64,000 nt of DNA from Myxococcales bacterium. Lineage in GTDB: Bacteria; Myxococcota; Myxococcia; Myxococcales; Myxococcaceae. Every line of letters starts with the position of its first letter. Within the stretch, counting starts at the first letter, position 1. The stretch covers positions 1 to 64,000 of the forward strand of contig JADLDB010000008.1 in the NCBI GenBank assembly GCA_020846875.1, in the 5' to 3' direction. A program made the translations under genes and the position numbers. Positions 2,074-7,158 of the stretch are shown piece by piece. Below the pieces are notes generated by a model that saw only the letters and a list, made by a program, of their open reading frames with translations, was not told the origin of the DNA and ran no database searches.

Positions 2074-2922
2074 TCAGCCGCGCAGCTTCTCCTGGCTGCG
2101 CGGGCCGGTGCTCTCTGCCTCGCCTGAGATGGGGGCGATCGGCTCCATCGCGCCGCCGGTCATCAAGGCCTCGCTCTCTTTCACCGTGGCGGCCACCGCG
2201 TCGACGCCGGTGAGCAGATCGTCGAGCTGCTCGGTCAGCTGATCCGGGGACGTCATTGTGAGCGCCTGGTCGCGCAAGAGGCGCACCGAGTTCTCGATCA
2301 GGTTCATCTGCCCCCGGGCGCGGGCGAGGAACTTCTCGATTTCCTGGATCGTCTCCAGCCGCTTCTTCAGCACCGCGGCGTTCTTCGAGGCCAGGCTGCG
2401 CACCGACTCATCGCCCATCTTCTCCTGCAGCACCTCCTGCGCCTTGAGCTGCCGCTCCAGCTCGCGCAGATCCACCGCCTGCAGGTACGACTCGGCGCGG
2501 CGGCACCCGTACGCCAGCTTCACGAAGCTCATGTGCAGGTGCTTCAGCTTCTCCAGCTCCGTCGCCAGCAGGATGGCCTGGAACGACGGGTTGTTGGCCA
2601 TGTCCCGCTCGATCTCCCGCCGCAGTTCGTCGAGCGCCTTGGCCCGCTGCCACTCGCGCTCCGGCAGCTCGGCCATCAGCTTGTCCGCGCGCTCGCGATC
2701 CGCCTTGTCCCGCTCCCGCCGCTCCGCCTCGCGCACCGTCCGCTGGAAGGGCTTCAGGTCCGGCCCCAGCACCAGCCACAGGGCCTCCACCGCGCCCGCG
2801 CCCGCCAGGATCAACCAGTCCCCGGTCGCCGCCGCCGCCACCGCCGCCCCTGCCAACAGCGACAGGTTGTAGACGTTGAGGAACGCCGCCTTGAGGAAGT
2901 TGGGAGGTCCGTCCGAGGCCAT
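2074..2922 (-). CDS. membrane-anchored coiled-coil protein of the OmpA-SBP transporter operon
   Basis: This 282-residue protein has two adjacent hydrophobic stretches at about residues 18-55. The second ends in 'LVLGPDLKPFQ'. A long, charged, mostly helical region (about 60-245) follows, with strong coiled-coil character, and then an Ala/Pro-rich tail. No enzyme motif is seen. It is the last gene of the five-gene minus-strand operon and follows the ATPase gene by 11 nt. Membrane anchoring next to an ABC importer suggests a scaffold or regulatory partner on the cytoplasmic side. It may be related in spirit to PspA- or TelA-type envelope-stress proteins, but I see no defining motif of either. 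Confidence 0.75.
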   Translation of the reverse strand: MASDGPPNFLKAAFLNVYNLSLLAGAAVAAAATGDWLILAGAGAVEALWLVLGPDLKPFQRTVREAERRERDKADRERADKLMAELPEREWQRAKALDELRREIERDMANNPSFQAILLATELEKLKHLHMSFVKLAYGCRRAESYLQAVDLRELERQLKAQEVLQEKMGDESVRSLASKNAAVLKKRLETIQEIEKFLARARGQMNLIENSVRLLRDQALTMTSPDQLTEQLDDLLTGVDAVAATVKESEALMTGGAMEPIAPISGEAESTGPRSQEKLRG

Positions 2923-2933
2923 CTCTTGGTCGC

Positions 2934-3818
2934 CTACAGCCCCACGCGAATGTTCCCCTGCACGTTGGACTCGTACAGGAGGTCGAGGATGTGGTTCTCC
3001 ACCCGCTTGAAGGCCTCCGTCTGCTTCAGCTTCGCGTCGCGCTCCTTGAAGTACGGCACCTCGATGCGGTGCAGCACCCGCGCCGGCCGGTGTGACAACA
3101 CGAAGATCACGTCGCCCAGGTACACCGCCTCGGACACGTCGTGGGTGACGAAGAGCACCGTGTTGTCCTGGGTGCGCAGCACGTCGAGGATCAACGTCTG
3201 CATGCCCCAGCGCGTCTGGGGATCGAGCGCGCCGAACGGCTCGTCCATGAGGATCAGCTTGGGCTTGTTCGCCAGGGTGCGGGCGATCGCCACCCGCTGC
3301 TTCATGCCGCCCGACAACTGGCGGGGCAGGTGATCCGCGAAGTCCTTGAGCCCCACCTGCTCGATGAGGGCCAGGGACAGCTTCTTCCTCTCGGCGGGCG
3401 CGATCCCCTGCAGCTCCAGCCCGTACTCCACGTTCTGCCGCACGGTGCGCCAGGCGAAGTGGGTGTAGCTCTGGAAGACCATGCCGCGGTCCCGCCCGGT
3501 CCCCGTCACTGGCACCCCATCGACCAGCACCTGGCCCGAGTCGGGGGTGAGCAGCCCGGCCACCGCCTTCAAGATGGTGCTCTTCCCGCAGCCCGACGGC
3601 CCGAGGAAGACGGCCAGCTCGCCCTGGCCCGGCTTGTTGGCCACGGTGAGGCTGACGTTCTCCACCGCCTGCACGGTGCGGCCCTGGCGATCGGTGTAGC
3701 TGATGAACAGATCCTGCAGCTCCAGCTTGGGCAGGGTGGTGCTGCTGCCCAGCCGAGGCGTCCCAGCCGGGGCGGGGGCGGGGCTCGCGGCGGGCGGCGA
3801 GGTCGGCTGCTCAGGCAT
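2934..3818 (-). CDS. ABC transporter ATP-binding protein, nitrate/sulfonate/taurine type
   Basis: A 294-residue ABC ATPase energising import with the adjacent permease. Walker A 'GPSGCGKST' is at residues 73-81, followed by the Q-loop 'VFQSYTHFAWRTV', signature 'LSGGMKQR', Walker B 'LILMDEPFGALD' and switch His in 'FVTHDVSEA'. The 'Q-S-Y-x-x-F-x-W-x-T-V' Q-loop is characteristic of the SsuB/TauB/NrtD group. A Pro/Ala-rich N-terminal extension of about 30 residues is longer than usual for the family. The start overlaps the permease stop by 8 nt, so the two are translationally coupled. The substrate cannot be named. Confidence 0.95.
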   Translation of the reverse strand: MPEQPTSPPAASPAPAPAGTPRLGSSTTLPKLELQDLFISYTDRQGRTVQAVENVSLTVANKPGQGELAVFLGPSGCGKSTILKAVAGLLTPDSGQVLVDGVPVTGTGRDRGMVFQSYTHFAWRTVRQNVEYGLELQGIAPAERKKLSLALIEQVGLKDFADHLPRQLSGGMKQRVAIARTLANKPKLILMDEPFGALDPQTRWGMQTLILDVLRTQDNTVLFVTHDVSEAVYLGDVIFVLSHRPARVLHRIEVPYFKERDAKLKQTEAFKRVENHILDLLYESNVQGNIRVGL

Positions 3819-4665
3819 CGACTTCCCTCCACGAGAAGAGCATGCGGTTGATGGTGCGGATCACCAGGTCGGTGAGGATGCCGATGATCCCCACCACCAG
3901 GATGCCGGCGAAGCTCCACTCGGGCTTGAGGTGCTGCTCGGCCAGCCGCAGGATGTAGCCGATACCCGACTGCGGGTTCACGATCTCAGCGAGGATGATG
4001 TACGTCCAGGCGATCGCGTTCATCACCCGGAAGCCGTCGAAGATCTGCGGCAGCGCGGCGGGGATGAGCACGGTGCGGATCACCTGCCCCTTGGTGGCGC
4101 CCAAGGTGAAGGCGGTCTGCACCATCTCGTCCGGCACCACGCGGATCGCGTCCACCACCGCCGGCAGCAGGTACACCACCGTGCCCAGGAAGAGGAACGC
4201 CACCTTCTGCGTCTCGTCGATCCCGAACCAGAGGATGAGCAGGGGGATGAAGGCGGTGATCGGCAGGTACCGCATCGGGGCGATGATCGGCTCGAACAGC
4301 CTGTTCACCACCTCGAAGCTGCCCATCAGGATCCCCAGCGGCAGGGCCACCGCCAGCGACAGCCCGAAGGCCTTGGCGATCCGCAGCCCGCTCACCCCCA
4401 CCGCCTGCAGCAGATCCTTCTCGAAGATGAGGAAGAAGAGGCTCTTCAAGACCTGGTCGGGCGCGGGCAGGAAGAAGTGCGGCACCAGCGGCACCGACTC
4501 GCCGTTCCTCGTCACGTGCACGTAGCTGAGCACGCACCACACGCCCAGGAGGAAGCCGAGCGACGACAGGGACAACAGGCGCGCGGTGCCCGCCGGCAGC
4601 GTGGTGCGCAGGCTCCACAGCGGCGGGGTGGCATGCTTGCGCGCAGGCGGCTTCTGCGGGGCCAT
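3811..4665 (-). CDS. ABC transporter permease, SsuC/TauC-like
   Basis: A 284-residue inner-membrane permease with about six hydrophobic segments. The conserved EAA loop that contacts the ATPase is visible as 'TAFTLGATKGQVIRTVLIP' near residue 190. The stretch 'MRYLPITAFIPLLILWFGI' is typical of SsuC/TauC/NrtB permeases (BPD_transp_1 fold). The gene follows the substrate-binding gene by 13 nt and overlaps the ATPase gene by 8 nt. With those two it should form a complete importer, probably a permease homodimer plus two ATPases. The N-terminal 25 residues are Pro/Lys-rich and cytoplasmic. Confidence 0.93.
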   Translation of the reverse strand: MAPQKPPARKHATPPLWSLRTTLPAGTARLLSLSSLGFLLGVWCVLSYVHVTRNGESVPLVPHFFLPAPDQVLKSLFFLIFEKDLLQAVGVSGLRIAKAFGLSLAVALPLGILMGSFEVVNRLFEPIIAPMRYLPITAFIPLLILWFGIDETQKVAFLFLGTVVYLLPAVVDAIRVVPDEMVQTAFTLGATKGQVIRTVLIPAALPQIFDGFRVMNAIAWTYIILAEIVNPQSGIGYILRLAEQHLKPEWSFAGILVVGIIGILTDLVIRTINRMLFSWREVDA

Positions 4666-4678
4666 GGCTGCCTCCCGG

Positions 4679-6346
4679 CTACTGCGCGTTCAGGACGACC
4701 TTGATGTCCGTGCGCCGGTTGAGCGCGCGCCCGTCCTCGGTGGTGTTGGGGGCCACCGGGTTACCGCTGCCCTTGCCCACGGTGACGAAGCGCTTCTCTT
4801 CGATCTTGAAGTTCTGCACCAGGTACGCCCTCACCGCGTCGGCGCGCTTCTGGGACAGCGTCTTGTTGACCGCCTCGTTGCCGCGGCTGTCGGTGTTGCC
4901 TTCCACCTGCAGGTAGGTGTTGCCGAAGGCCAACATCGTCTCGCCCAGCGAGTCGAGCGTGAAGTAGCTGCCGGGCATGATCTCGTCGGAGCCGGTGGTG
5001 AAGTGGATGGACAGGCTCTTGTTGACGATCGCCCGGTCGTTCAGCTTGGGCTTGTCCTTGAAGGCGAAGGACTCCTCCACCTTCTGCGTGGCGTACTGCG
5101 AGGCCAGCGCGGCGACGAAGCGCGCGTCCTTGAAGTCGGGCGCGTCCACCACCGTGTTCACCACGCCCTTCTTCCGCCAGATCACGAAGGCGCCGTTGAA
5201 GAGGGAGTCGAAGTACGGCTTGGGCCCCGCCAGGCCGAAGAAGAGCGCGTTGTCGGCGTACGGCGTCAGCTTGAGGCCGCTGAGCATGCCGGACACGTCG
5301 TCGGGCGTCAGCTTCAGCGCGTCGGCGACGATCCGGTTGGTGCCCTGCGGATCTTCCTTCATCACGCTGATCGCGTCGAACCAGCCGGCCACGAAGCTGG
5401 CCACCGACTTCGGCGCCTCGTCGAGGACCTGCTGCCGCGCCACCAGGGTGTCGGCGATCACGTTGGTGGCCGCGGTGGTGGACACCAGCACGTGCGCGTC
5501 GTTCTCCCGCGCCGCAACCGCGCCAGAGAGATCCGGCTCCCAGGTGACCGCCGCGTCCACCTTGCCGGCCTTGAACATCGCCGCGGCCTTGGGCGCCTCG
5601 TCGGCCCACACCAGGTTCTTCTCGATCTCGTTGCGATCCTGCGGGGACAGGCCCGACTGCGAGAGCAGGAACAGCAAGAGCCAGTGCGAAGGCGTGTACC
5701 TGGTGGTGGCGATCCGCTTGCCCTTGAGGTCCTCCACCGACTTGATCGTCTTCAGGCTGACGATGCCGTCCCCTCCGCGGCTCCAGTCCTCCTGGAGGAT
5801 GGCGCGCGCCTTGAGGCCCTTCTCCTTGAGCTCGCTGGCCTCGCGGGCCCACGAGTCCACCGTGTCCCACATGATGTCGATGTCGCCCTTGATGAAGGCG
5901 GCCAGCTTGGCGCTGGGGTCCTCGAGCAGCACGAACTCCACGTCCAGGCCGTACTTCTTCTTGTAGAGGGACGCGGCGCTGCCCGGCTTCAGCCCGCCGT
6001 TGGCGACGATCCCCGGGGCGTGACCGGCCCAGGTGTTGATGCCCACCCTGAGCGGACGGTTGAGCGACTTGTCGGGCACCGCCTCGCCGCCCTTCACGTC
6101 CATGCCGCCCTGCTTGGGCGCGTCGGTCAGCCCGGCGTTGATGTTGCTGAAGTCGTCCTTGGTCACGTCCTGGCCGGTGCCCGTGCCGCCGGTGCCCGCA
6201 GCGCCAGTCCCTCCGGCGCCCGTCTGCTTGGGGCCCGCGCCGGACCAGGCACGGACCTCGTCGCCGTACTTCTTCCAACCGATGAAGCCGATGACGCCCA
6301 GCGCCACCAACGCGATGAACAGCTTCCCGAACGGAGTGAGTTTCAT
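4679..6346 (-). CDS. membrane-anchored NMT1/SsuA-type substrate-binding protein fused to an OmpA peptidoglycan-binding domain
   Basis: A 555-residue fusion. Residues 7-23 form one hydrophobic segment with no obvious cleavage site, so an inner-membrane anchor is likely. A Gly/Thr-rich linker (about 37-60) leads to a solute-binding domain (about 97-410) of the NMT1/SsuA/TauA type: 'LRVGINTWAGHAPG', 'GDIDIMWDTVDSW', 'AAVTWEPDLS'. The last 112 residues (from about 444) are an OmpA-like domain with 'GNTDSRGNEA', 'LSQKRADAVRAYL' and 'LNRRTDIKV', retaining the Asp and Arg that bind diaminopimelate in OmpA. Binding proteins of this class are normally free or lipid-anchored. Here the receptor would be tied both to the inner membrane and to the cell wall. 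Confidence 0.93.
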   Translation of the reverse strand: MKLTPFGKLFIALVALGVIGFIGWKKYGDEVRAWSGAGPKQTGAGGTGAAGTGGTGTGQDVTKDDFSNINAGLTDAPKQGGMDVKGGEAVPDKSLNRPLRVGINTWAGHAPGIVANGGLKPGSAASLYKKKYGLDVEFVLLEDPSAKLAAFIKGDIDIMWDTVDSWAREASELKEKGLKARAILQEDWSRGGDGIVSLKTIKSVEDLKGKRIATTRYTPSHWLLLFLLSQSGLSPQDRNEIEKNLVWADEAPKAAAMFKAGKVDAAVTWEPDLSGAVAARENDAHVLVSTTAATNVIADTLVARQQVLDEAPKSVASFVAGWFDAISVMKEDPQGTNRIVADALKLTPDDVSGMLSGLKLTPYADNALFFGLAGPKPYFDSLFNGAFVIWRKKGVVNTVVDAPDFKDARFVAALASQYATQKVEESFAFKDKPKLNDRAIVNKSLSIHFTTGSDEIMPGSYFTLDSLGETMLAFGNTYLQVEGNTDSRGNEAVNKTLSQKRADAVRAYLVQNFKIEEKRFVTVGKGSGNPVAPNTTEDGRALNRRTDIKVVLNAQ

Positions 6347-6395
6347 GATCGGCCCCTGGTGAGACGTGTCAGTGCTGCGAAGAAGAAGGAAGCGC

Positions 6396-7100
6396 TCACG
6401 CCTTCGGCGCGGCGGGCGGAGGAGGCGCTGAGGACGCCCCGAAGAAGTCCAGCACGCGGTGCACCTCGGCCTTGCGGGTGTCGGCCGCCGCGGAGACGGA
6501 CGCCAGCGTCTCGGTCTTCCTGGTGATGTCCGCCCGGAGCCCGATGATCTTGTCCTCGAGCTGGGCGATCTGCGCCTGCGCGTCGGTGATCGCCTTCGCC
6601 GTCTGTGACTCGTTGAGGCGGACGTAGGTCTCCAGCGCCTTCAGTTGGTTCTGCGCGGCCCCGACGATCTTCGCCACCTCGAAGCCGAAGGCCTTCAAGG
6701 ACGCCTCGACGATCTGCCGCTTCACGTCCTGGGGGGTGGACTCGGGCAGGCTCTTCAAGAGCTCCTCGGCCTTGCGCACCCGGTCCAGCTCGGCCGCGTC
6801 CATGCCCGCGCCCTTGAAGACGGCGTCGAAGTCCACCTTGGCGGGGGTGACGGGGCCGGCGGGGGCGGGGATGACGGCCCGCGGAGGTGCCGTTCCCGTT
6901 GCCGGCGCGCTGGCCTTCCGGGGTGCGGACTGGCCGGCCAGCTCGGCGACCAGCTCGGCGGCTGACTTCTCGCTGGCCTCTCCGGCCTCGCCCGCCTCCT
7001 GCGACACCGCCTCGGTGCCTTCGGCGGGCGTACCGTCCTTCCCCTCGGTCTCGACGAACAAGCCGAGGATCTTCGACCCCAAGCCTTTGTCTTCGGGCAT
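6396..7100 (-). CDS. coiled-coil protein, first gene of the OmpA-SBP transporter operon
   Basis: A 234-residue soluble protein with no signal peptide. The N-terminus has 'GLGSKILGLFVE', then an Ala/Pro-rich linker to about residue 85. A compact conserved-looking block follows ('FDAVFKGAGMDAAELDRV', 'LLKSLPESTPQDVKRQIV', 'ASLKAFG'), then a C-terminal coiled coil (about 150-215). It opens the minus-strand operon 49 nt before the binding-protein gene, and its start faces the divergent GAF gene across 58 nt. I do not recognise a named family. Position and coiled-coil content suggest it works with the coiled-coil protein at the other end of the operon. Confidence 0.8.
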   Translation of the reverse strand: MPEDKGLGSKILGLFVETEGKDGTPAEGTEAVSQEAGEAGEASEKSAAELVAELAGQSAPRKASAPATGTAPPRAVIPAPAGPVTPAKVDFDAVFKGAGMDAAELDRVRKAEELLKSLPESTPQDVKRQIVEASLKAFGFEVAKIVGAAQNQLKALETYVRLNESQTAKAITDAQAQIAQLEDKIIGLRADITRKTETLASVSAAADTRKAEVHRVLDFFGASSAPPPPAAPKA

Positions 7101-7158
7101 GGCCGCTGTTTAGCAGAGAGAATTCCGCATACCGCCGAAATCTGGTTTGTTCGGCCGC

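Follow-up and report, generated by a model that had tools for sequence, protein, structure and literature searches.

The operon and its genes

The window analysed here is a stretch of 64,000 nt from the genome of a Myxococcales bacterium of the family Myxococcaceae (GenBank assembly GCA_020846875.1, contig JADLDB010000008.1, positions 1 to 64,000). It contains an operon of five genes which, read from the first, encode a helical protein (CC234), a substrate-binding protein fused to an OmpA domain (SBP-OmpA), the permease and ATPase of an ATP-binding cassette (ABC) transporter, and a second helical protein (CC282). Coordinates of these genes and of the upstream flank are collected in Table 1. 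All five genes are intact. The junctions between them measure 49, 13, -8 and 11 nt, with the start of the ATPase gene overlapping the end of the permease gene by 8 nt. The coding signature is strong in all five open reading frames (ORFs), with a GC content of 0.93-0.98 at third codon positions vs 0.51-0.60 at positions 1 and 2. The gene order, minus-strand orientation, coordinates and junctions proposed in a first-pass annotation, made from the sequence alone, were all confirmed by the ORF positions.

Table 1. Features of the five-gene operon and its upstream neighbourhood in the window
Feature	Coordinates	Strand	Basis
CC234, first gene, cytosolic helical protein, 234 aa	6396..7100	minus	ORF list; AlphaFold
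SBP-OmpA, NMT1/SsuA/TauA-type binding domain with OmpA_C, 555 aa	4679..6346	minus	Pfam
Permease, SsuC/TauC class, 284 aa	3811..4665	minus	PF00528, 7.5e-21
ATPase, TauB/SsuB/NrtCD class, 294 aa	2934..3818	minus	PF00005, 8.2e-32; motifs
CC282, membrane hairpin and cytosolic bundle of long helices, 282 aa	2074..2922	minus	AlphaFold
Gap separating CC234 from the divergent GAF-domain gene, probable operon promoter region	7101..7146	none	
GAF-domain protein, divergent neighbour of CC234, 400 aa	7147..8349	plus	PF01590, 3.5e-15

An importer with a binding protein predicted to be tethered twice

The ATPase retains its Walker A, LSGG signature, Walker B and H-loop motifs, and the permease consists of a single BPD_transp_1 domain with an EAA-type loop. 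Together with the ABC_tran domain of the ATPase and the NMT1 domain of the binding protein, these features uphold the earlier assignment of the transporter to the SsuABC/TauABC class. The ATPase, permease and NMT1-type binding domain resemble those of the SsuABC, TauABC and NrtABC importers, and the nearest solved structures to the binding domain are the SBPs of taurine, nitrate and sulfonates. Unlike those importers, the window's transporter scored below the cut-off of every NCBIfam equivalog model, with SaoP/TauC/SsuC the closest for the permease. To our knowledge, the classical operons of this class also have no OmpA fusion, inner-membrane anchor or coiled-coil partners.

SBP-OmpA matches NMT1 (PF09084, 8.8e-11) and OmpA (PF00691, 2.5e-18) in Pfam. 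Its one hydrophobic segment, at residues 6-24, is followed by the NMT1/SsuA/TauA-type domain (about 95-425) and by an OmpA_C peptidoglycan-binding domain (about 445-550), which carries the LSxxRA motif, including its diaminopimelate-binding D and R residues. Because the protein has no cysteine, it is not a lipoprotein, and its N-terminus is probably held in the inner membrane. SBP-OmpA is thus predicted to be anchored at both ends, in the inner membrane through its N-terminal segment and in the cell wall through its OmpA domain; the initial description of the protein as wall-tethered was correct as to the OmpA domain and incomplete as to the N-terminal anchor.

Among 84 SBPs of this module type, here called module A, residues N104, W106, G108, P111, D187, W188, S189, G191, D193 and W269 are kept in 83-84, and the wall-binding positions of the OmpA domain are similarly constant (D486 in 84 of 84, R501 in 83 of 84). 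By analogy with the family, the set from N104 to W269 would line the ligand pocket. Since these residues are invariant across phyla, the module-A SBP probably binds one conserved ligand in several of them. A second SBP-OmpA paralogue of 38-39% identity was seen in another genome (L052, G009:C658, 1851-3605), where it stands alone with no permease or ATPase gene beside it.

Conservation of the gene order

When 84,980 species genomes were scanned with the SBP-OmpA alignment, 382 relatives were found, of which the 80 best were taken for locus counts; these belong to Myxococcota, Acidobacteriota and Planctomycetota, apart from a single bin with the label beta proteobacterium. As the 80 loci were chosen by SBP similarity and include close relatives, the counts that follow are not independent. 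The order CC234-SBP-OmpA-permease-ATPase-CC282 was found in 41 of the 49 loci with enough flanking sequence, in both Myxococcota and Acidobacteriota. Taken gene by gene, again where the flank sufficed, the permease and ATPase follow the SBP in 69 of 71 loci, CC282 is present in 54 of 60, and CC234 lies upstream in 53 of 63. Within the window's family, SBP-OmpA, CC234 and CC282 co-occur in one order.

Linkage was also recovered when the search began from either helical protein. Of 193 Myxococcota genomes, 28 carry CC234; the 22 that belong to the window's family have it mostly inside the same operon, and in five of the six others it lies in or beside the module. CC282, searched for independently, adjoins SBP, PspA or AAA+ genes in 16 of 20 further Myxococcota loci, nearly all from other families, and the order PspA-SBP-permease-ATPase-CC282-AAA+ recurs in such families even though they were selected by CC282 and not by SBP. 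The first-pass annotation had proposed a neighbourhood search from each coiled-coil gene, holding that genes scattered without linkage to the transporter would make the operon a local accident; both searches led back to the module. Judged by gene order, the five-gene arrangement is conserved far beyond chance, as a module. The sixth CC234 homologue outside the family is an orphan on a short contig (L213, G056:C389, 1593-2300), with no other module genes within 9 kb. The bin that holds it has 6% contamination, and this CC234 may be foreign.

PspA and AAA+ partners in relatives

In 48 of the 80 loci, CC234 and the SBP gene are separated by a PspA/IM30 gene of about 235 codons, or such a gene stands just before the SBP gene. 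Its identity is supported by matches to PF04012 of 1.5e-19 and 5.8e-15 in relatives' operons, and in Planctomycetota a PspA gene directly precedes the SBP gene (PF04012, 6.9e-11). An AAA+ gene follows CC282 in 28 of the 47 loci with room for one, encoding a protein of about 600 aa with a C-terminal AAA+ domain (PF00004, 6.8e-25). The full set in relatives therefore reads CC234-PspA-SBP-OmpA-permease-ATPase-CC282-AAA+, and most relatives outside the window's own clade carry both PspA and AAA+ in the operon. Neither a PspA nor an AAA+ ATPase gene is among the genes of the window operon.

In the SBP tree, the window falls in a clade of 11 rows (SH-aLRT, the Shimodaira-Hasegawa-like approximate likelihood ratio test, 99), none with a PspA in the operon, and this clade is nested among operons of Myxococcota and Acidobacteriota in which PspA is present. 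The simplest history suggested by the tree is loss of PspA from the operon in the ancestor of the 11-row clade; on gene content and tree position, the window operon is a derived version without PspA and AAA+. Two long-branched rows of unsure placement (L127, L128) also lack PspA.

TerB-family genes (PF05099, 6.3e-10) adjoin the module in about ten Myxococcota loci, for example at 6073-6519 in L084 and 13958-14416 in L086. The window operon itself has no TelA or TerD gene, as the first reading of the sequence had noted.

A second, paralogous cluster in the same genome

The window's genome holds a second, paralogous cluster, module B (G000:C62:38000-55000, locus L178), which is widespread in the window's family and order. 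It comprises PspA, an SBP without the OmpA domain, a CC282 paralogue (272 aa, 30% identity), a 532-aa lipoprotein-like gene, a Ser/Thr kinase and an AAA+ gene. The region also contains a reading frame for a predicted FtsX-type permease and a partial match to an ATPase, and it has no SsuC/TauC-type permease. No PspA other than that of module B was found in the window's genome. A reading of AAA+ matches in 60 relatives as FtsH, for which the AAA domain alone aligned, was set aside; the match in the window's own genome is a 580-aa protein of the same family, encoded in module B. The module-B SBPs show consistent changes at the presumed pocket (W106 to R, W188 to R, and D193 to E), and D187 is altered to G or S.

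A PspA-CC282-AAA+ trio also occurs in a Vicinamibacteria locus (L135, 12977-16422), with an SBP-permease-ATPase set lacking CC282 a few kb away. From this trio and module B, PspA, CC282 and AAA+ look like the core of the system, with the importer and its OmpA-linked SBP as an attachment.

CC234 and CC282

The AlphaFold model of CC282 (predicted local distance difference test, pLDDT, 87; predicted template modelling score, pTM, 0.77) has a short N-terminal helix, a predicted transmembrane (TM) hairpin at about residues 17-55, which is also the hydrophobic segment of the protein, and a bundle of long helices at 57-256. CC234, which has no hydrophobic segment, was modelled with a short N-terminal helix, a disordered linker and helices at 91-137 and 142-219 (pLDDT 81, pTM 0.52). 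The CC234 family is conserved in Myxococcota and Acidobacteriota.

A Pfam scan placed neither protein in a family above cut-off, and a search of PDB sequences with their profiles returned nothing significant. Assignment of CC282 to XpaC or DUF948 was rejected, as none of the scanned members reached a Pfam cut-off. Profile comparisons were likewise not significant for CC282 with PspA (E 0.28) or, by hhalign, for CC234 with PspA (E 0.043) and with TelA (E 0.19). In fold searches, the best rows for CC282 were designed bundles, the gamma-tubulin ring complex (gamma-TuRC) and BAR/F-BAR domains, tied and middling matches whose Z-scores of 8.5-11.4 lie below the tool's meaningful level for helical bundles. 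CC234 reached a Z-score of 5.7 at best, with ESCRT-III rows present and tied with unrelated proteins.

Relation to described systems

Ravi et al. 2024 (PMC11237479) have described, in a single passage, the association of PspA, a TM-containing Snf7 protein, AAA+, ABC transporter genes and PBPB-OmpA, with OGG56892.1 as the example. According to that paper, the AAA+ partner has two AAA+ domains, the N-terminal one inactive; PspA occurs with Snf7 in Deltaproteobacteria, and a third coiled-coil gene in Bacteroidetes. Its authors also state that the means by which PspA homologues lacking an associated AAA ATPase control their assembly are not known. Like the operons described there, the window operon has an ABC ATPase, a permease, an SBP fused to OmpA and a TM-containing coiled-coil protein; unlike them, it has no PspA or AAA+. 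Judged by its position, CC282 is likely the "Snf7 homologue with a TM segment" described there. The window operon also carries CC234, which was not found mentioned in the main text of the paper, the only direct precedent returned by our literature search; that search gave nothing on CC234, the PspA-less clade, the paralogy of modules A and B, or the conservation of the pocket. The general PspA/AAA+/ABC association is therefore already known; what is new is CC234 as a family, the variant lacking PspA together with its clade, module B and pocket conservation.

The linkage of relatives' operons to PspA/IM30 and the presence of a membrane-anchored helical partner recall the bacterial phage shock protein (PSP) system (pspABC, liaIH, Vipp1/IM30). 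The module differs from it in that PspB, PspC and Toastrack components were not identified and in that the window operon lacks PspA. PspA and ESCRT-III belong to one superfamily, and the module bears on the question of what recruits or drives PspA in bacteria without PspB and PspC. Candidates can now be named: CC282 as a membrane-anchored adaptor and CC234 as a cytosolic component, in addition to AAA+ and a wall-anchored importer. Module B provides an internal comparison, with the same partners in the same genomes and no matching importer permease.

A similar arrangement was seen on a Vibrio penaeicida plasmid (L211, NZ_AP025146.1, 4919-14290), where two OmpA-carrying SBP-like proteins, a vWA protein, a 257-aa hairpin/coiled-coil protein, TelA, a urea-type SBP, a permease and an ATPase are encoded together. 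It shares with the module an SBP-OmpA, an ABC ATPase and permease, a hairpin protein of CC282-like layout and a cytosolic helical protein, in this case TelA (PF05816, 2.8e-49). It differs in that its SBP is only 28% identical to that of the window and that TelA and vWA genes stand in place of CC234 and PspA. A relationship between the 257-aa protein and CC282 was unsupported by profile comparison (E 0.22-0.44) despite their like layout. We regard this operon as the TelA counterpart of the module. TelA was found only in this distant relative. With the TerB-family genes noted above, the operon substantiates the statement in the first-pass annotation that OmpA-linked SBPs occur beside TelA/TerD-type stress genes.

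Proposed role and alternatives

We propose that the window operon represents a derived form, without PspA, of an envelope module that is conserved and couples uptake or sensing to envelope upkeep, and give this reading a probability of about 0.6. The underlying evolutionary association, a PspA/AAA+-linked envelope module, is very likely on the evidence of gene neighbourhoods. The particular coupling mechanism, involving the tethered SBP, CC282 with CC234, PspA and AAA+, is tentative and in our judgement falls short of even odds. The doubly tethered SBP would bridge membrane and wall and hold the importer there, with CC282 forming a membrane platform on the cytosolic side. CC282, together with CC234, would recruit or control PspA and the AAA+ remodeller; CC234 and PspA would act on CC282, and AAA+ would drive turnover of the assembly. 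For the window's clade, module B may supply PspA and AAA+ in trans. Local stabilisation of the membrane could in this way be coupled to ligand binding, to transport activity or to wall-membrane strain.

The first-pass annotation had offered two possibilities, that the coiled-coil proteins scaffold or gate the importer or that the module is an envelope-stress or sensing device rather than a nutrient importer. The conserved linkage to PspA and AAA+ makes the second the better of the two, as far as the connection to envelope-stress genes goes; the words "rather than" an importer are not supported, as the transporter is intact and its pocket invariant. Several points weigh against the coupling of uptake or sensing to envelope upkeep. 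Gene clustering by itself is no proof of physical coupling, and the part given to PspA and AAA+ in the window operon is drawn from relatives and from module B, not from genes in cis. Profile comparison gave no significant match of CC282 or CC234 to PspA. Many of the loci are metagenome-assembled genomes and are not independent. In some Acidobacteriota (L106, L118, L124, L134, L100), the SBP-permease-ATPase set has no CC234 or CC282 nearby, and therefore the transporter can do without both there.

Relatives of that last kind also speak for an SsuABC/TauABC-class importer that simply takes up a nutrient, in which the coiled coils are accessory scaffolds, the OmpA tail merely retains the SBP in the periplasm, and PspA and AAA+ answer the membrane stress of importer overproduction. 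An intact ATPase, permease and SBP would be expected of such a system, as would the single conserved ligand implied by the pocket. This explanation is unlikely, however, given that CC282 and PspA occur together apart from the importer (L135, L187) and that module B keeps both beside an OmpA-less SBP with no SsuC/TauC-type permease. We also know of no ordinary TauABC or SsuABC operon that carries such coiled-coil, PspA or AAA+ genes. The altered pocket of the module-B SBP (W106R, D187G/S, W188R), next to PspA and CC282 and without that permease, would instead suit a sensor, in which SBP, permease and ATPase act as a receptor that signals its liganded or strained state through CC282 and CC234 to PspA without meaningful uptake. 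An SBP tethered at both ends is compatible with this role. The catalytic motifs of the module-A ATPase are all intact, however, and would be superfluous for pure sensing, and the conserved core includes no transcription regulator; we give the sensor the same rather low odds as the plain importer.

Somewhat less likely again is that CC234 and CC282 are themselves ESCRT-III-like (Snf7-like) remodelling subunits, such that the window operon has its own machine and PspA is dispensable. Ravi et al. report a TM-containing Snf7 in such operons (PMC11237479), and there are weak structural rows linking CC234 to CHMP2A/3, CHMP1B, Snf7/Shrub and Vipp1, and CC282 to Asgard ESCRT-IIIB. The scores of these matches (Z about 4-5; Foldseek E at least 0.6) nevertheless fall in the aligner's range for helical proteins that are unrelated, CC282 aligns equally well to BAR-type bundles, and the profile-profile comparisons with PspA were not significant. 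In an extension of this idea, which we consider improbable, CC234 and CC282 would be two new families forming a bacterial ESCRT-like coat, and this coat would physically link membrane remodelling to the doubly tethered ABC importer; in Myxococcaceae and Archangiaceae it would have become independent of an operon PspA and AAA+, either borrowing them from the sister cluster or replacing them. That the neighbourhood is a local accident has next to no likelihood. The operon is missing from many members of the window's family and order (SBP-OmpA is present in 18 of 60 relatives), as an accident might be, but one order in several phyla and strict linkage in the searches begun from CC234 and CC282 led us to reject it.

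Genes flanking the operon

Directly downstream of CC282, at 1321-2073 of the window, lies an AbiEii-like nucleotidyltransferase gene, with a Pfam match (E 2.3e-4) just under the cut-off. A small overlapping ORF at 1779-2066 adjoins it, and neither was seen at that place in relatives. On the other side, the divergent GAF-domain gene is kept beside CC234 only in Myxococcaceae and Archangiaceae loci. Its association with the operon is weaker than that among the five genes, and its product is a possible regulator of the operon.

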